Positions 2,740-23,690 of a stretch of DNA of 24,703 nucleotides are shown one piece after another. This DNA is from a virus. The stretch spans positions 1 to 24,703 of the IMG/VR virus record IMGVR_UViG_3300009609_000061; one strand, 5' to 3'. Each line of letters begins with the position of its first letter. Within the stretch, counting starts at the first letter, position 1. Made by a program: the position numbers and the translations under genes. The notes below the pieces were generated by a model, which was given only the letters and a program-made list of their open reading frames with translations, did not search any database and was not told the DNA's origin.

Positions 2740-4659
2740 ATGCTCGACCGGGCCTACGCGCTGCTGTCCATCAAAGCTCTCGACGGCCCGCGGCGCACCA
2801 TCACCGGGCTGGCATCCACGCCGACGCCCGACCGCCGCGGCGACATTCTCGAGCCGCTGGGCGCCACGTTTCGGAATCCCCTCCCGCTGCTGCTGCATCA
2901 CGACCGCGAACGGCCGATCGGCCGCGCCACGCTGACCGCGCGGCGGGACGGGATTGCCTTTGAAGCCACGCTCCCGGACATCACCGAGCCGGGCGCCGTG
3001 CGCGATCGTGTGAATGAAGCGTGGCACAGCATCCAAGCCGGGTTGATGACGGGCGTCAGCATCGGGTTCCGGCCGCTGGGCGGCGCGGACGGCGTGAAGG
3101 CGCTGCCGTCTGGTGGCATGCACCTGTTGATGACCGAGATCTGCGAATTAAGTCTGGTCACGGTACCGGCGAACGTGGAGACCACTATTCACACGATCAA
3201 AAGTTTGGACCTACCGCACTTGGCCGCGTCTGGCCTGACCTTGCCCGGCGTTGCGGGCCGCACGAGCACGAGGCCCACGATGGCCAAACCGACGACTGCC
3301 GAACACATTCAGAACCTCGAAAACAAACGCGCCGCGTTTACCGCGCGCATGACCGATATCCTGCAGACCGGCGCCGACGATGGCGCCACGCTCGCGCCCG
3401 ATCAGGCCGAAGAGCACGACGGGCTCGCCGCGCAAGTGAAGAGCCTGGATGCCGATCTCGTGCGCTGGCGCGAGCTGGAGAAGATGCAGATCACGACCGC
3501 GACGGTGGTCCCGACGGCGCCGCCGACGCTGCGCCTGAACAGCTACGCGGGCCAGGTGTCGGTGCGGCCGAACGTGCCGATCGGCATGCCCTTCGTGCGG
3601 CAGGCGATGGCGCTGCTCGTGTGCCACGGCAACAAGCACGAAGCGGCGCAGTATGCGGAACGCTGGAACGACAGCACGCCCGAAGTGGCGCTGTCCCTGA
3701 AGGCGGCGATTGCGCCCGGCACCACGACGGATAGCACCTGGGCCGCGCCGCTCGTCAACCAGACGATCGTCAACGACTTCATCGAGCTGCTGCGACCCGC
3801 CACGATTCTCGGGAAGATTCCCGGCCTGCGCGTCGTGCCGCCGAATTGCAAAGTGCCGTCCCAGACCGCCGGGGGAACATACGGGTGGGTCGGGGAAGCG
3901 AAACCGAAGCCGTTGACCAAGCTCGCGTTCAGTTCCGAGACGCTGGGCTATTCCAAGATCGCCGGGATCATCGTGCTGACCGAGGAACTGGTGCGGCTCT
4001 CGAATCCGTCCGCGGAGGCGTTGGTGCGCGCTGATATGGTGGCCGGGATTGCAGCCTTTATGGACCAGCAATTTACGGATCCGGCGATCGCCGCGGTCGC
4101 CAACGTGAGTCCCGCCAGCATTACGAACGGTGCGGCCACGGCGGCGGCCACGGTGAATCCGATGGCGGATCTGTTGGGCCTGATCAACCACTTCGCCACC
4201 AATAACATTCCGGTGGATGGGCTCACGTTCATCATGTCGCCGGCAAATGCGCTCGCGCTGTCGTTCCGATCGAATAGCGACGGGTCGCCGCAGTACCCCG
4301 GCATCGGGATCAACGGCGGCAGCTATCGCGGCCTGACGTTCATCACGAGCAATGCCGTGACCACGAATGTGATTGCGTTACAGCCGTCGCTGATTCTGTA
4401 TGCCGATGAAGGCGGCGTGACCATCGATGCCTCGCGCGAAGCCTCGTTGCAGATGGACTCGGCGCCGATGTCGCCGGCCGATGCGACGACGGTCTATGTC
4501 AGCTTGTTCCAGACCAACAGCGTTGCGCTGCGCGCGGAGCGGTTCGTGAACTGGAAGCGCATCGGGACCAACAGCGTGAAATACCTGACGGCCACGGCGT
4601 GGCCGGCGCCGGCCGCCGCGATGGCCGATGCGCCGACCGTCCGCAACGGGAAGGCGTAG
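2740..4659 (+). CDS. Prohead protease - scaffold - major capsid fusion protein
   Basis: One uninterrupted 639-aa frame holds what HK97-like phages usually encode as two genes. Residues 1 to about 165 are an S78-type prohead protease: His53-His54 in LLLHHDRERPIGRA, Ser107 in GLMTGVSIGF, and the acidic EICELSLVTVPAN around 133-145. Residues about 181-250 are a charged helical delta (scaffold) region (HIQNLENKRAAFTARM). Residues about 265-625 are an HK97-fold major capsid protein (TWAAPLVNQTIVNDFIELLRP, YGWVGEAKPKP, SKIAGIIVLTEEL, DPAIAAV). The protease would assemble with the shell and cut away itself and the delta region. No clear ribosome binding site precedes 2740. An internal Met181 with a GAGG six bases upstream could give a separate capsid precursor. 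Confidence 0.93.
   Translation: MLDRAYALLSIKALDGPRRTITGLASTPTPDRRGDILEPLGATFRNPLPLLLHHDRERPIGRATLTARRDGIAFEATLPDITEPGAVRDRVNEAWHSIQAGLMTGVSIGFRPLGGADGVKALPSGGMHLLMTEICELSLVTVPANVETTIHTIKSLDLPHLAASGLTLPGVAGRTSTRPTMAKPTTAEHIQNLENKRAAFTARMTDILQTGADDGATLAPDQAEEHDGLAAQVKSLDADLVRWRELEKMQITTATVVPTAPPTLRLNSYAGQVSVRPNVPIGMPFVRQAMALLVCHGNKHEAAQYAERWNDSTPEVALSLKAAIAPGTTTDSTWAAPLVNQTIVNDFIELLRPATILGKIPGLRVVPPNCKVPSQTAGGTYGWVGEAKPKPLTKLAFSSETLGYSKIAGIIVLTEELVRLSNPSAEALVRADMVAGIAAFMDQQFTDPAIAAVANVSPASITNGAATAAATVNPMADLLGLINHFATNNIPVDGLTFIMSPANALALSFRSNSDGSPQYPGIGINGGSYRGLTFITSNAVTTNVIALQPSLILYADEGGVTIDASREASLQMDSAPMSPADATTVYVSLFQTNSVALRAERFVNWKRIGTNSVKYLTATAWPAPAAAMADAPTVRNGKA
3270..3282 (+). promoter_or_regulatory. 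Candidate internal ribosome binding site and start for the capsid precursor
   Basis: GAGG at 3270-3273 lies six bases upstream of an in-frame ATG at 3280-3282 (Met181 of the fusion). It falls at the junction between the protease domain and the delta region, just where a separate capsid gene would start. Use of this start would yield a 459-aa delta-capsid protein in excess over the fused protease. The motif is short and could be chance. Confidence 0.35.
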
Positions 4660-4665
4660 CGCCGC

Positions 4666-6090
4666 ATGCGTCTCTTCGGCCTGGAAATCAGCCGCACGCC
4701 CCGCCTCCCGGCGCTGTCGCCACCGTCGGGGACCCTTGGCGGCGGCTGGTTTCCAGCCGTGCGGGAAAGCTTTACGGGCGCCTGGCAGCAGAACGCCCCG
4801 CCGATCACCACGCAGTCGGCTCTCAGCTATTTCGCCGTGTACGGCTGCGTCACGCTGATTGCGACGGACATTGGCAAGCTGCATCTGCGTCTCGTGGCCG
4901 AAACGGAAGACGGCGTGTGGGAGGAGACGTCGAATCCCGCGTACTCGCCCGTCCTGCGGCAACCGAACCACTATCAGACGATTGTCAAACTGGTCGAGCA
5001 GTGGATTACCAGCAAACTCACGGCGGGGAATGCGTACGTGCTGAAGGAACGCGATCAGCGTGGCGTGGTGTCCGCGCTGTACGTGCTGGACCCGGCGCGC
5101 GTGACGCCGCTGATCGCGCCCGATGGCTCGGTCTACTACGGCTTGAAGCGGGATGATCTGACCGGCGTCTCGGTCGGGCCGGAGGGCGCGCAGTACGACG
5201 TCGTGGTCCCTGCTAGAGAAATTATTCACGACCCGATGGTCACGCTTTTTCACCCGCTGATCGGCGTGACGCCGCTCTACGCCTGCGGGATGGCCGCGCA
5301 GATGGGCCTGACGATGCAGACCGGGAGCGAGAAGTTTTTCCGCTCCGGCGCGCATCCCGGCGGCGTGCTCACCACGCCGGAAGGCGTGAGTAAAGAACAG
5401 GTCGATCGCTGGAAGGCCGAGTGGCAGGAGAAGTTCAGCGGCGCCAACGTGGGCAACGTCGCCGTGCTGAGCGGCGGCATGAAGTACGAAGCGATGACCG
5501 TCAACGCCTCCGACTCGCAGCTGATCGAGCAATTGAACTGGACGGCGGCGAACGTGTGTAGCGCGTTTCACGTCCCACCGCAATTGCTGGACATCAGCGA
5601 CGCGCCGACCAGCGACCTCGAGACGTTGCTGGCCAAATACCACAGTCAGTGCCTGCAGTCGCTGCTGGCGAACTTTGAAGCCAGCCTGGACGCCGGACTC
5701 GAGCTGAAGCCGCCCTACGGCACCGAGTTCGATCTTGATGATCTGATCTGGATGGTGACGTCCGTGCGCGTCAAAGCCGCGGCGGATGCGATCGGCGCCG
5801 GCGCGTTGTCGCCGAACGAAGCGCGCTTCAAGTACTTCGGGCTGGGCAAGGTGGAAGGCGGCGACAGTCCCATGATGCAGCAGCAGAACTTCAGCCTGAA
5901 AGCCCTGGCGCAGCGGGACGCGGATAACCCCTTCAGCAAACCCGCGCCGCCGACACCGGCGCCGCCGACCAGACCCGAACCGGAACCCGACCCCGACGAG
6001 GACGAGCCCCCGCCGGATGAGGAAGACGAAGAGAAAGAATTCCGCGCGGCCTTCCTGAAGGCCCTCGACGGGTTGTCGTATGCGGCCTGA
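4666..6090 (+). CDS. Portal protein, HK97 family
   Basis: The dodecameric ring at the DNA entry vertex, 474 aa. Family hallmarks are present in order: SALSYFAVYGCVTLIATDIG near residue 45, HYQTIVKLVEQWITSKLTAG, GNAYVLKERD, LYVLDPARVTPLIAPDG, and the EIIHDPMVTLFHPLIGVTPL segment. Then come the stem and crown helices with LIEQLNWTAANVCSAFHVPP, typical of Phage_portal proteins. The C-terminus (about residues 425-460) is an unusual Pro/Glu/Asp-rich tract, probably disordered, ending in a short amphipathic helix. A GGAAGG lies about a dozen bases upstream of the start. The gene lies after the capsid gene, whereas HK97 and most relatives place the portal before the protease and capsid. Confidence 0.95.
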   Translation: MRLFGLEISRTPRLPALSPPSGTLGGGWFPAVRESFTGAWQQNAPPITTQSALSYFAVYGCVTLIATDIGKLHLRLVAETEDGVWEETSNPAYSPVLRQPNHYQTIVKLVEQWITSKLTAGNAYVLKERDQRGVVSALYVLDPARVTPLIAPDGSVYYGLKRDDLTGVSVGPEGAQYDVVVPAREIIHDPMVTLFHPLIGVTPLYACGMAAQMGLTMQTGSEKFFRSGAHPGGVLTTPEGVSKEQVDRWKAEWQEKFSGANVGNVAVLSGGMKYEAMTVNASDSQLIEQLNWTAANVCSAFHVPPQLLDISDAPTSDLETLLAKYHSQCLQSLLANFEASLDAGLELKPPYGTEFDLDDLIWMVTSVRVKAAADAIGAGALSPNEARFKYFGLGKVEGGDSPMMQQQNFSLKALAQRDADNPFSKPAPPTPAPPTRPEPEPDPDEDEPPPDEEDEEKEFRAAFLKALDGLSYAA

Positions 6091-16121: not shown

Positions 16122-16279
16122 CGCCGGCGCACATCACGGCGCTGTGTCAGCCGGAACGGATTGAGGTCTACATCGGGCTCGGGCTCGCGGCGCTCATCGG
16201 CTATGGCGCGGGCGTGCTGTGGCCGTGGCTGCAGGCGATCGCGCTGGAACGCCGCAAGGCGCTGCACGGCGTCCGCTGA
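16118..16279 (+). CDS. Small membrane protein, 53 aa
   Basis: A short gene starting in an ATGA overlap with the helix-turn-helix gene. The product has a polar N-terminus (TPAHITALCQPERIE), one membrane span (VYIGLGLAALIGYGAGVLWPW) and a short basic tail (ALERRKALHGVR), suggesting the N-terminus outside and the C-terminus in the cytoplasm. I do not recognise a family. It forms a pair with the next small membrane protein; the two could be holin-, spanin- or exclusion-type proteins, but nothing in the sequence decides. Confidence 0.6.
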   Translation: MTPAHITALCQPERIEVYIGLGLAALIGYGAGVLWPWLQAIALERRKALHGVR

Positions 16280-16290
16280 GTCAGCCTGTC

Positions 16291-16449
16291 ATGGCATGGC
16301 TGGCCTTACTCGCCGCCTTGGGGCTGGCGTTCGGCTGCGGCGTGGCCGTCGGGCGCTGGCAGGCCGCCGCGCGGCCGCCGCGGCTCGCGTTCTACGCCCG
16401 CATGCAAACCGGCGCCGACCTGCGCCGACGGTTGTTCGGAGGGCACTGA
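16291..16449 (+). CDS. Small membrane protein, 52 aa
   Basis: A short gene 11 bases after the previous one. The product begins with a hydrophobic segment MAWLALLAALGLAFGCGVAV, followed by a basic tail (GRWQAAARPPRL ... DLRRRLFGGH). The segment could be a single span; the A-F-G-C at residues 13-16 also resembles a lipobox, so a small lipoprotein is possible. The stop overlaps the start of the methyltransferase (TGATG). No ribosome binding site is obvious, so coupling to the upstream gene is likely. The family is not known to me. Confidence 0.55.
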   Translation: MAWLALLAALGLAFGCGVAVGRWQAAARPPRLAFYARMQTGADLRRRLFGGH

Positions 16450-17507
16450 TGACTGATGAACTGGTCCCGCAATCCCCCGACGAGGCGATGGCACTGGCCG
16501 ATCGATTGCGCGCCGATCGCCTGGCCGTCCGCGGGAACCTGTCGAAACAGGTGGTTGTCCGCAAGCGCATCCAGATCATCGGCGACCTGATGCGCGCGCG
16601 TGGCGCGGCGGTGCCGCTGCAGCTTGCGTTCACGCGCGAGCGGGTCGAGGCCGAGCGCGACATCGGCGATACGCTGCTGGCCGAAGGCGACCGCCGCAAG
16701 CCGCCACGCGGGCCGGGACGTGGGAAAAAGACTATGCAAGACGCACAGTCTTTTTCTGTTGGCGGCACGACTCTTCCGCTGCCTTCTGGTGTCACACACC
16801 GATTAGCGCACGACTGTCGGACTCTCGCGCGCTGGCCGAAGGAACACTACGACGCGGCGATGAGTCGATGTATCGCCGAACCCGAAAAACACGAACTGAC
16901 CAGCCACGCGCTAATCAGTTTGGCGCAACGCTGGGCGCGGACGCAGGCCACGACGGATGCGCCCGTGTTTCCGGCGGGCACCTTCGCGGTGCTCTGCGCC
17001 GATCCGCCGTGGGCCTATCGCAATAGCGGCTTCGAGCAGTCGGCCGCGGCGCAGTATCAGACGCTCGAGACGCCGGCCATCTGCGACCTGGCCGATGCCG
17101 ACGGGCGCCCGGTCGCCGAGCTCGCGACTGATGCGAGCGTGCTGTTTCTCTGGGTCACGTCGCCGCTGTTGCCCGACGGCCTGCGCGTGCTTGATGCCTG
17201 GAAGTTCAGCTACGTCGCATCGCTCGTGTGGGTGAAAGACCGGGCGCCCGGCCTAGGCTGGTGGGTTGAGACGCGCCACGAATTCCTGCTGATTGGCCGA
17301 CGCGCCGATAGTCCGCAGCCCGCCATCAAACCGCTATCCGTCATCGACGCTGCCGTCAGCGGGCATTCTGAAAAACCGGCGATCGTGGCCGAAATGATCG
17401 AGGCGATGTTTCCCGGCCCGCTGGACGAGACGCACTACATCGAACTGTTTTCGCGCCAGCCGCGCGCCGGCTGGGCCGCGTTCGGAAATCAGGTGCCCGC
17501 ATGCTGA
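16449..17507 (+). CDS. MT-A70 family adenine methyltransferase
   Basis: A 352-aa protein with two parts. Residues 1 to about 170 are a helical N-terminal region (ADRLRADRLAVRGNLSKQVV, ERDIGDTLLAEGDRR, HRLAHDCRTLARWPKEHYDA) like the ParB/KorB-type helices found before phage MT-A70 domains. Residues about 175-350 are the methyltransferase, with the catalytic DPPW at 185-188 (CADPPWAYRNSG), FLWVTSPLLPDGLRVLDAW, and SLVWVKDRAPGLGWWVETRH, then EKPAIVAEMIEAMFPG. It would make N6-methyladenine in DNA, probably to protect phage DNA from host restriction or mark its own replication. The start at 16449 overlaps the prior stop; an in-frame start at 16161 would cover two small genes. Confidence 0.9.
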   Translation: MTDELVPQSPDEAMALADRLRADRLAVRGNLSKQVVVRKRIQIIGDLMRARGAAVPLQLAFTRERVEAERDIGDTLLAEGDRRKPPRGPGRGKKTMQDAQSFSVGGTTLPLPSGVTHRLAHDCRTLARWPKEHYDAAMSRCIAEPEKHELTSHALISLAQRWARTQATTDAPVFPAGTFAVLCADPPWAYRNSGFEQSAAAQYQTLETPAICDLADADGRPVAELATDASVLFLWVTSPLLPDGLRVLDAWKFSYVASLVWVKDRAPGLGWWVETRHEFLLIGRRADSPQPAIKPLSVIDAAVSGHSEKPAIVAEMIEAMFPGPLDETHYIELFSRQPRAGWAAFGNQVPAC

Positions 17508-21117: not shown

Positions 21118-21293
21118 AGCGAAAGGCATCGCTGGGGCTGCTGACGTCGCATCATGTCAGCGCCGCGCATGCGCCGAAACCCGTGCGCCGCGTCGTGGCC
21201 GTCACCGAGCCGCCGCGCGTCGTCACCTACAACGGCGTAGACTTCCTCGTCATGTTCGATGGCGTGGACCACCACACCGTGCAGGACGCCTGA
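21087..21293 (+). CDS. Unknown 68-aa protein
   Basis: A 68-aa protein with GAGGAG at 21076-21081 as a good ribosome binding site for the ATG at 21087. It overlaps the previous gene by 31 bases in another frame. The N-terminal part is basic with His residues (LKRKASLGLLTSHHVSAAHA), and the C-terminal part forms a short beta unit (PPRVVTYNGVDFLVMFDGVD). No family is recognised. The stop overlaps the start of the methyltransferase (TGATG), so it is probably co-translated with it. Confidence 0.6.
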   Translation: MSDDAVAVPLKRKASLGLLTSHHVSAAHAPKPVRRVVAVTEPPRVVTYNGVDFLVMFDGVDHHTVQDA

Positions 21294-22825
21294 TGCTGGT
21301 GCAGGCCGACGCGCGCGCGCTGCCGTTGCGGGATGCGTGCGTGCAGTGCGTCGTTACCAGCCCGCCGTATTGGGGCTTGCGCGACTACGGGACCGCGATA
21401 TGGACCGGCGGTGATCCGGCGTGCCGGCATGTGCAACGGATGGCCCGGCAAGATGTGACGCCGGAAGCGTTGGCTCGTCGGGCCGCGCAATATGGCACTG
21501 GACAATCGTCGGGATCGTTTGTGCCGGCGATCCAGTTTCGTGACGCCTGCCGGACGTGTGGCGCGCAGCGGCAGGACCGACAGATTGGCCTCGAGCCGAC
21601 GCCGGAGGCCTACGTCGCCACGCTGGTGCAGGTGTTCCGCGAAGTGTGGCGCGTGCTGAAGGCCGACGGGACCGTGTGGCTTAATTTGGGTTCCAGTTAC
21701 TTTGGGGCGGCTGGCGGCGACACACACACGGGGTTCAATGAGCGTTACTTCGGCAAACAGTTCGCAACCAATAAGCAGGCTACCGTGCCTTTTCCTTGCG
21801 ATGGTAAACCTGCCAACCAGTCTCGCCAGCGTCGGCGTGCTCACGCATATGGCACCGATGGCACAGCACTTCAAGATTCGACGGGCGCTGATTCCGCTTG
21901 TCGCGATCTTTGTGATGAATGCCTAGCCGACTGGATGACCCATTGTGAGCGCATCGCTGACATTTCCCGACCTCCGCCACCAGTCGAGCCGCTTCTGTTG
22001 CCGACAAGCCGTGATAGCGCGCTGACGGATTGCGCGTCAGCATCTCTTGACGCTTTGCTTCCCGGCGCTCAGGCGTCCAATACGCTTGAATCTTGGCAGC
22101 AACATCGGGGCGAGTGCTCGCGCTGCGATAGGCGTGCTTCTGCCCTGTCAGGCGTTCGCTCATCTTCTGGCGATGCTCATGCGTTCGCTCGTATGACATG
22201 GCTCGATTATACAAGAAGGTTGAAGCATAAAGATATGGTGCCAGTGCCGTGGATGGTTGCAATGGCGCTGCAAGCCGACGGCTGGTATCTCCGCAGCGAC
22301 ATCATCTGGCACAAGCCCAACCCGATGCCGGAATCGGTGACGGATCGGCCGACGAAGGCGCACGAATACCTGTTCCTGCTGACGAAGGCCGCGCGGTACT
22401 ACTACGACGCCGACGCGATCAAGGAACCGCAAACAGCGGGATCTTTGGCGCGGTGGACGGAGGGCGCACGGCGCGTTAACGGGGCGAAGTCGGACGCACG
22501 CACGGGAAAAGACACCAGTTTTACGACGAGTGGCTTCCTGCCGGATGGCCGCAACCGGCGCAGCGTGTGGACGATCGCCACGCAATCCTATCCAGGTGCC
22601 CACTTCGCGACGATGCCCGAGGCGCTGATCGAGCCGTGCATCCTGGCCGGCAGCAAACCCGGCGACGTGGTGTTGGATCCGTTTGGTGGAACTGCCACCG
22701 TTGTCCGCGTGGCGCGGCGGCTGAACCGCGAGGGGATCGCCTGCGACCTGAACCCGCAGTACCTCGCGCTGGCTGAAGACCGGATTACCGAGGTGCAGCC
22801 GTCATTGCTGCACGTGGGCGCCTGA
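21293..22825 (+). CDS. DNA methyltransferase (N4/N6 type, beta-class order) carrying an insert
   Basis: A 510-aa DNA methylase with motif IV near the N-terminus (TSPPYWGLRDYG, residues 22-33) and the AdoMet site near the C-terminus (VLDPFGGTATVVRVARR, Asp462), the beta-class order. Further family hallmarks are VFREVWRVLKADGTVWLNLG and SDIIWHKPNPMPESVTDRPT. Residues about 162-308 do not look like this family; they are the complement of an HNH gene on the other strand (21780-22199). Without them the flanks (GKQFATNKQ and LKHKDMVPVPW) would join as in normal relatives, to give an enzyme of about 360 aa. No stop interrupts the insert, so the enlarged protein could be made, but its activity is open. 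Confidence 0.88.
   Translation: MLVQADARALPLRDACVQCVVTSPPYWGLRDYGTAIWTGGDPACRHVQRMARQDVTPEALARRAAQYGTGQSSGSFVPAIQFRDACRTCGAQRQDRQIGLEPTPEAYVATLVQVFREVWRVLKADGTVWLNLGSSYFGAAGGDTHTGFNERYFGKQFATNKQATVPFPCDGKPANQSRQRRRAHAYGTDGTALQDSTGADSACRDLCDECLADWMTHCERIADISRPPPPVEPLLLPTSRDSALTDCASASLDALLPGAQASNTLESWQQHRGECSRCDRRASALSGVRSSSGDAHAFARMTWLDYTRRLKHKDMVPVPWMVAMALQADGWYLRSDIIWHKPNPMPESVTDRPTKAHEYLFLLTKAARYYYDADAIKEPQTAGSLARWTEGARRVNGAKSDARTGKDTSFTTSGFLPDGRNRRSVWTIATQSYPGAHFATMPEALIEPCILAGSKPGDVVLDPFGGTATVVRVARRLNREGIACDLNPQYLALAEDRITEVQPSLLHVGA
21780..22199 (-). CDS. HNH homing endonuclease, antisense to the methyltransferase
   Basis: A 139-aa protein. The N-terminal ~50 residues (EHRQKMSERLTGQKHAYRSA, then PDVAAKIQAYWTPERREAKR) resemble NUMOD3-like DNA-contacting helices. 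The C-terminal HNH domain has zinc pairs Cys80/Cys83 (CQRC) and Cys113/Cys116 (CHRC), the catalytic His95-His96 in LGIHHKDRDKRN, Asn108 in PSNLEVLC and His117. Such enzymes cut DNA lacking the insert and so spread. I take the ATG at 22199; an in-frame start at 22262 would run past the promoter. No ribosome binding site precedes it, and the -10 box lies six bases upstream, so the message looks leaderless. The stop TAG is at 21780-21782, at the insert edge. Confidence 0.9.
   Translation of the reverse strand: MSYERTHEHRQKMSERLTGQKHAYRSASTRPDVAAKIQAYWTPERREAKRQEMLTRNPSARYHGLSATEAARLVAEVGKCQRCAHNGSSSRLGIHHKDRDKRNQRPSNLEVLCHRCHMREHADAGETGWQVYHRKEKAR
22200..22211 (-). promoter_or_regulatory. -10 box for the antisense HNH gene
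   Basis: On the minus strand a perfect TATAAT (22211 to 22206) is followed by CGAGCC and the HNH start codon. Transcription would be expected to begin at the A of the ATG. No good -35 box is seen 16-18 bases upstream. Confidence 0.55.
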
Positions 22826-23059: not shown

Positions 23060-23221
23060 ATGCCGCTGCTCCACGCGCTGCTGATCGTCGTGCTGATCGT
23101 GCTGCTGCTCGGCGTGTTGCCCGGCTGGCCGTACTCGGCGACGTGGGGCTACGGGCCGAGCGGCCTGATCGCCGTGGTGCTGATTGTCCTGCTCGTGCTG
23201 CTGCTTGCCGGGAGGCTGTGA
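23060..23221 (+). CDS. DUF3309-like small membrane protein
   Basis: A 53-aa protein with a strong GAGGAGG site (23049-23055). Two hydrophobic spans (HALLIVVLIVLLLGVLPG and LIAVVLIVLLVLLLAGRL) flank the loop WPYSATWGYGPSG. The P-x-WPYS-x-x-WGYxPSG loop is the signature of the DUF3309 family, small membrane proteins common in proteobacterial and other Gram-negative genomes and occasionally in phages. The function is not known. Here it is followed by a still smaller membrane protein. It might act in lysis or in the envelope; nothing proves either. Confidence 0.8.
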   Translation: MPLLHALLIVVLIVLLLGVLPGWPYSATWGYGPSGLIAVVLIVLLVLLLAGRL

Positions 23222-23313
23222 TGACGCTGGCGGATGCGGCGGGCATCGTGGTGCTGGTGGTCGCCGGGTGGCAGATTGGGAACTGGTTGCGAAGGAAGGG
23301 GTGGGTGCGGTGA
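23221..23313 (+). CDS. Tiny membrane protein, 30 aa
   Basis: A 31-codon frame between two supported genes, with TGATG overlaps at both ends. The product, MTLADAAGIVVLVVAGWQIG followed by NWLRRKGWVR, has one short hydrophobic segment and a basic end, like a minimal membrane-anchored peptide. The exact fit between neighbouring stop and start supports real translation, but so short a frame could be chance. Confidence 0.5.
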   Translation: MTLADAAGIVVLVVAGWQIGNWLRRKGWVR

Positions 23314-23690
23314 TGCAGTTCTGCGGCGAACCCGGCTGCGGTGCGCTGGTCCCGAGTGGCCGCTGCCCGACGCATGCGCCCCGCGACCGCTACACCCGCC
23401 CGGTCTACGCCGCCACGCATGCGTGGTACGGCTCGCTGCGCTGGCGCCTGCTGCGGGCCGAGATGCTACGCGCCGAGCCGTTCTGCCGGGCGTGTCGGGC
23501 CGACGGCCACCACGTGCTGACGCATGACATCGATCACATCACGAAGCACGCCGGCGACCCGGCGAAGTTCTGGGATCGGAGCAACCTGCAGGGCTTGTGC
23601 AAGCCCTGCCATACGAGAAAAACAACGTGGGAAAGCCGAGGCGATTCCTTCCACGAATCGCCTCGTTTCAACAAAGGAGAGAACCGATGA
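23313..23690 (+). CDS. HNH endonuclease (phage packaging-associated type)
   Basis: A 125-aa HNH nuclease. The N-terminus has a small Cys cluster (Cys4, Cys9, Cys18, His21). The SLRWRLLRAEMLRAEPFCRA helix leads to the core: zinc pairs Cys58/Cys61 and Cys96/Cys99, Asp74-His75 in THDIDHITKHAGDP, Asn91 in WDRSNLQGLC and His100. This type (W-x-x-L-R-x-x-x-L) is found next to terminase genes of HK97-like phages, where it assists DNA cutting in packaging. Here it is at the far right edge from TerS, but about 1.07 kb upstream if the molecule is circular. The start overlaps the previous stop (TGATG). Confidence 0.9.
   Translation: MQFCGEPGCGALVPSGRCPTHAPRDRYTRPVYAATHAWYGSLRWRLLRAEMLRAEPFCRACRADGHHVLTHDIDHITKHAGDPAKFWDRSNLQGLCKPCHTRKTTWESRGDSFHESPRFNKGENR

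Follow-up and report, generated by a model that had tools for sequence, protein, structure and literature searches.

Genes and features at the locus

The window, by which is meant the whole stretch of viral DNA analysed (24,703 nucleotides, positions 1 to 24,703 of IMG/VR record IMGVR_UViG_3300009609_000061), carries its head genes as one tightly packed series on the + strand. The gene found between those for the large terminase subunit and the portal protein is a single reading frame with zero stops that holds a prohead protease, a delta region and a capsid protein. The features of this part of the window are as follows.

972–2528, + strand: large terminase subunit, upstream neighbour (Pfam TerL_nuclease/TerL_ATPase)
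2525–2728, + strand: 67-aa ribbon-helix-helix protein between the terminase and the fusion gene (Pfam RHH_1, E = 2.2e-4)
2740–4659, + strand: long product of 639 aa, i.e., S78 prohead protease, linker, delta/scaffold region and HK97-fold major capsid protein; ATG start with a weak Shine-Dalgarno (SD) sequence
2878–3198, + strand: Peptidase_S78 domain, residues 47–153, with conserved His54, Ser107 and Glu136 (Pfam PF04586, E = 1.2e-10)
3178–3279, + strand: linker, residues 147–180, hypervariable and predicted to be disordered (low pLDDT); 9–55 aa long across relatives
3270–3273, + strand: internal SD core GAGG, 6 nt 5' of an ATG, supported by conservation and a synonymous-site test in relatives
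3280–4659, + strand: nested gene for a candidate short product of 459 aa (Met181–Ala639, delta and capsid precursor); its start is kept in 194 of 194 fused relatives and is homologous to the capsid gene start of 30 split relatives
3280–3702, + strand: delta/scaffold region, residues 181–321, mostly helical (predicted helices 186–213, 220–252 and 283–322)
3703–4656, + strand: mature capsid domain with predicted start at Ala322 (PF05065 at residues 338–617; match to HK97 prohead I; putative cleavage site)
4666–6090, + strand: portal protein, encoded 3' of the capsid gene (Pfam Phage_portal, E = 4.3e-78)

Domains of the long product

The 639-aa protein matches the S78 prohead protease profile PF04586 with 42.2 bits (cut-off 21), Phage_capsid with 53.9 bits (cut-off 24.2) and, from residue 194, TIGR01554 major_cap_HK97 with 59.3 bits (cut-off 27.5), while its residues 2–621 align with positions 9–626 of the 626 in the phrog_617 profile as one family (E = 2.9e-121). 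An earlier reading of the window made from the letters alone (the sequence-only reading) had placed a protease, a delta region and an HK97-fold capsid in this one frame, and the Pfam, TIGR01554 and phrog_617 matches agree with it. As the phrog_617 profile spans protease, delta and capsid, the protein can by profile be assigned to this family of protease-capsid fusions. The NCBIfam model for prohead protease/MCP fusion proteins (NF045541) gave 21.8 bits, which is below its curated cut-off of 525, and a phmmer search of PDB sequences returned capsid matches only, all of them weak.

Ser107, which the sequence-only reading had named as catalytic, is invariant together with Glu136 in all 80 aligned sequences. 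The catalytic histidine had been placed at residue 53 and has to be moved by one position: column 53 holds H, Y, K, or E, whereas a histidine is found at column 54 in 79 of the 80 sequences, the remaining one having a gap. Both the His and the Ser expected of the active site of an S78 prohead protease are thus retained.

An AlphaFold2 model (mean pLDDT 71.5) consists of the protease domain, a low-confidence stretch, the helices 186–213 and 220–252 and then the capsid. The pLDDT is below 50 over residues 147–181, and about 30 for most of that stretch, and the disordered linker stops at Met181. Residues 280–621 of the model superimpose on HK97 prohead I with Z = 16.3 and an rmsd of 3.5 over 246 residues, so that by profile and predicted fold the capsid part is an HK97-fold major capsid protein. 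The residues Lys321-Ala322 are invariant across 25 aligned members; this invariance makes Lys321/Ala322 the likely delta cleavage site, and the 3' end of the delta/scaffold region was set from it.

Fusion of protease and capsid genes is already known, as the sequence-only reading had stated, and the question at issue is the internal start. Fusions of protease, scaffold and capsid have been described for actinobacteriophages with small genomes and for cluster EL (PMC7302621), records deposited for actinobacteriophages use "major capsid and protease fusion protein" as a standard product name, and the PAJU2 record names the gene "prohead protease fused capsid protein." The phrog_617/PAJU2 type (UniProt P85500, "capsid polyprotein," Detrevirus) is homologous over its full length and has the same domain order. 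Its gene lies between terminase and portal as in the window, and the order terminase, fusion gene, portal also occurs in Salmonella FSL SP-016.

Relatives compared

A total of 230 sequences, including the window, was gathered from IMG/VR, GTDB genomes, phages and plasmids; 194 of these are fused and 30 are split, i.e., have separate protease and capsid genes. A non-redundant set contained 51 members with less than 70% identity. The site of the internal start lay inside one of the six search peptides used for retrieval and inside one peptide of another search; these exact peptides occur in just 6 and 2 sequences, and dropping those sequences leaves the result unchanged. Retrieval with patterns located away from the site gave the same outcome (23 of 23 from genome contigs). 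One relative (L051, 3500–5389, 65% identity) has an in-frame stop near residue 93 in the protease while the capsid part and the internal start are intact. It is either a broken copy or a sequencing error and, treated as such, was omitted from the tree described below.

Conservation of an internal start codon and ribosome-binding site

The sequence-only reading had pointed to GAGG, six bases and the in-frame Met181 at the junction of protease and delta region, and this arrangement is present, with the ATG at 3280–3282. The anti-SD energy in the window is −1.6 kcal/mol at the first start versus −5.9 kcal/mol at the internal start. The internal SD of the window is a 4-base core, and within the window alone the arrangement is not significant, as about 15% of the codon positions in the ORF match the anti-SD equally well or better. 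It is solely by sequence comparison with relatives that the internal motif becomes highly significant.

An in-frame start codon (190 ATG and 4 GTG) precedes the delta domain by 2–6 residues in each of the 194 fused members, and the four members without Met have Val at the site, encoded by GTG every time. The distance between the end of the protease profile and this codon varies from 9 to 55 aa. In the non-redundant set the residue entropy at the site is 0.24 bits versus roughly 2.5–3.4 bits at the flanking positions, and ATG makes up only 8 of the 1849 other linker codons.

An SD core of at least 4 bases located 4–12 nt upstream is found at the site in 45 of the 51 non-redundant members; the remaining six are without a 4-base core at the right distance. 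At the other in-frame ATGs of the same genes such a core is found in 68 of 614 cases (11%; Fisher p = 3.5e-32, where this and the other p-values assume independent members, so that shared ancestry overstates the evidence, and effect sizes are free of this assumption). Conservation of Met181 and GAGG in relatives was the check proposed with the sequence-only reading, and these counts bear its expectation out. The mean anti-SD energy for the internal start is −7.1 kcal/mol versus −3.6 kcal/mol (p = 4e-14).

The peptides encoded at the SD vary among members (RP, QE, KE, EG, KG, RK), i.e., the SD is achieved via different residues. When codons were resampled synonymously using the codon usage of each gene, the mean anti-SD energy at the site was −5.6 with a bias toward the SD (z = −5.4), and random control sites gave z values from −0.4 to +2.5. 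Dereplication at 50, 60, and 80% gave z = −2.4, −4.1, and −7.7, respectively, and the clade of the window gave −5.6 and −9.7. Taken together, these sequence comparisons demonstrate that the internal start codon and its SD are conserved and under selection.

The two starts differ in strength in the clade of the window (78 members). Of the first starts, 45 are GTG, 31 ATG, and 2 TTG, and their mean SD energy is −2.7; the internal starts are ATG without exception (78 of 78) and have a mean SD energy of −6.0. These strengths fit a need for few proteases and many capsids. The stronger statement that the internal SD always beats the SD of the first start was rejected: it holds on average in the clade of the window, and across the full set of 47 comparable members the difference in SD strength does not reach significance (p = 0.10).

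Fused and split relatives

Where the capsid has a gene of its own, i.e., in the 30 split relatives, this gene begins at the codon homologous to the internal start (27 ATG, 2 GTG, and 1 TTG). The joints between the two genes differ: in Moraxella Mcat1 and Mcat9 the genes overlap at an ATGA, in Stenotrophomonas SOVA965 an intergenic gap lies between them, and in three relatives (L125, L199, and L210) the two parts are separated by little beyond an in-frame stop. A tree of 78 capsid domains contains 11 changes between the fused and the split state, at least nine of which are forced by well supported branches. The clade of the window, which occupies 16 rows on this tree, is all fused; its intact internal start is therefore not a recent leftover. 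One Brucella daejeonensis genome has the gene pair in both forms, fused and split, each on its own contig (L104 and L120).

Two probable nested products from one frame

It is very probable, judging from these comparisons, that the frame specifies two nested products, a minor protease-delta-capsid polypeptide and a major delta-capsid precursor. Internal initiation had been raised by the sequence-only reading as an option, and it is now well supported through the start codons, the SD and the starts of the split relatives. The frame would thus consist of two nested, in-frame and co-terminal genes. Initiation at the ATG at 2740 would give the long polypeptide as the minor product, and initiation at the ATG at 3280, by way of the GAGG core in the linker, would give the counterpart of HK97 gp5, a delta-capsid precursor. 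We infer that this short form is made and is the majority product, i.e., the bulk subunit of the shell, so that internal initiation would set the ratio of protease to capsid. The long form may co-assemble by means of the delta-capsid part that it carries, and its protease would in this way come to lie within the prohead, where it would cut off the delta regions, probably at Lys321/Ala322, and free itself.

The separate genes for gp4 (protease) and gp5 (delta-capsid) of HK97 share with the window the S78 protease, the delta-capsid precursor and the HK97 fold; HK97 differs in having two genes and in that the portal precedes the protease (PMC12749128). HK97 Prohead 1 holds 415 copies of the capsid protein and about 60 of the protease, and D3 has about 90 proteases (PMC12749128). 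A shell of about 400 capsid subunits with only about 60–90 proteases per prohead poses a problem of stoichiometry for fusions, which a conserved internal start would solve in one gene.

The best surviving alternative, although improbable, is that the 639-aa form is the only product, a polyprotein, so that each capsid subunit bears a protease that is removed autocatalytically. This has been proposed for the PAJU2 fusion, according to a secondary account (PMC8306868, citing Uchiyama 2009), and the frame is uninterrupted in all 194 fused relatives. A protease on every subunit would, however, far exceed the roughly 60–90 copies per prohead of HK97 and D3, and a single polyprotein leaves unexplained why a start codon is conserved in a hypervariable linker, why GTG replaces the Met, why the SD is conserved with selection at synonymous sites and why the split relatives have the same starts. 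PAJU2 itself has CAGGAGGG 5' of its internal ATG.

It is less probable still that the short form is made from Met181 by way of a separate internal transcript, as for herpesvirus UL26/UL26.5. In that case translation would still begin at this start codon with this SD; against such a transcript stands the arrangement of the head genes in one closely spaced series on one strand. A very unlikely explanation is that the internal start is a relic, inherited from ancestral separate genes and non-functional in fused members. Given the repeated switching on the tree, some lineages may have become fused only recently, but the all-fused clade of the window retains the site in every member despite the divergence of the linker, and the synonymous selection on the SD is strong inside this clade alone. 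Equally hard to credit is that the SD-like motif, which sits exactly on the domain boundary, makes translation pause between domains or that the Met serves a need of the protein such as a cleavage site, as a pause has no need for a start codon at a fixed distance, and a need for Met predicts neither GTG in all four exceptions nor the synonymous selection.

Comparable systems and other fusion families

The frame in the window resembles lambda C/Nu3 in having an in-frame start within the protease gene for a candidate co-terminal, shorter head-assembly product. In lambda the capsid has a gene of its own, the short product consists of scaffold alone, and the protease belongs to the S49 type. Unlike lambda Nu3, the nested product predicted for the window includes the capsid itself. 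Herpesvirus UL26/UL26.5 encodes nested protease-containing and protease-free assembly proteins, and differs in that these are made from separate transcripts and that the short form is scaffold only. With its conserved internal start and ribosome-binding site, the frame in the window would belong to the same kind of nested in-frame pair as lambda C/Nu3, the nested start of which is cited in PMC8508860. Searches that covered mainly open-access papers returned no account of an internal start in a fusion of protease and capsid, which within this scope does not prove absence.

The actinobacteriophage fusions, i.e., BurtonThePup (phrog_2263) and Camille/Count (phrog_3270), likewise have protease, scaffold and capsid in one ORF (PMC7302621). 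They belong to PHROG families other than that of the window, and have an internal ATG or GTG with an SD in a variable linker. In phrog_2263, BurtonThePup gp5 and RRH1 Orf7 have an ATG after GAGAGGAC and GGAAGGA at the joint between protease and scaffold; seven close relatives are 80–100% identical, and the comparison covers these two members. In phrog_3270 (genes L232, 8242–10263, and L242–L321) 54 of 64 members have Met at a single alignment column that lies between scaffold and capsid, four more have GTG there and a further five a start codon within two residues of the column, while in the last member (L320) an ATG with an SD is placed a few residues further upstream. The anti-SD energy of this internal start is −8.9 versus −4.1 (p = 1.5e-14). 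The position differs from that in the window, as the start in phrog_3270 lies between scaffold and capsid (Camille M256) and that in the window between protease and delta. As the internal start in phrog_3270 lies after the scaffold, the bulk shell subunit would be scaffold-free.

Internal starts are thus seen in three PHROG families, with statistics for phrog_617 and phrog_3270 and in the two members compared for phrog_2263. Whether "major capsid and protease fusion" genes of tailed phages in general are nested gene pairs rather than single-product genes, and whether in phrog_3270 the scaffold is carried only by a rare, protease-bearing long form and is missing from the bulk subunit, is a proposal for which we consider the chances to be even. 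A conserved internal start would change the annotation of several hundred phage genes, and proteomic and structural work on these phages would then expect translation to yield mainly a delta-capsid precursor and not a self-cleaving polyprotein. The repeated switching between the fused and the split state about one preserved start codon would offer a clean natural case of fusion in which separate expression is not lost.

Other genes in the window

Outside the head genes, an ORF for an HNH endonuclease (21780–22262, − strand; Pfam HNH_3, HNH, and a weak NUMOD3) lies antisense within an ORF for an N6_N4 DNA methylase (21293–22825, + strand), which remains open across it. The GC content is 0.57 in the nested HNH part versus 0.65 on either side, and this dip suggests that the HNH ORF is an insertion. 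A second HNH endonuclease is found at 23184–23690 (+ strand), close to the right end of the window, and an MT-A70 adenine methylase at 16161–17507 (+ strand) brings the number of DNA methylases in the window to two.
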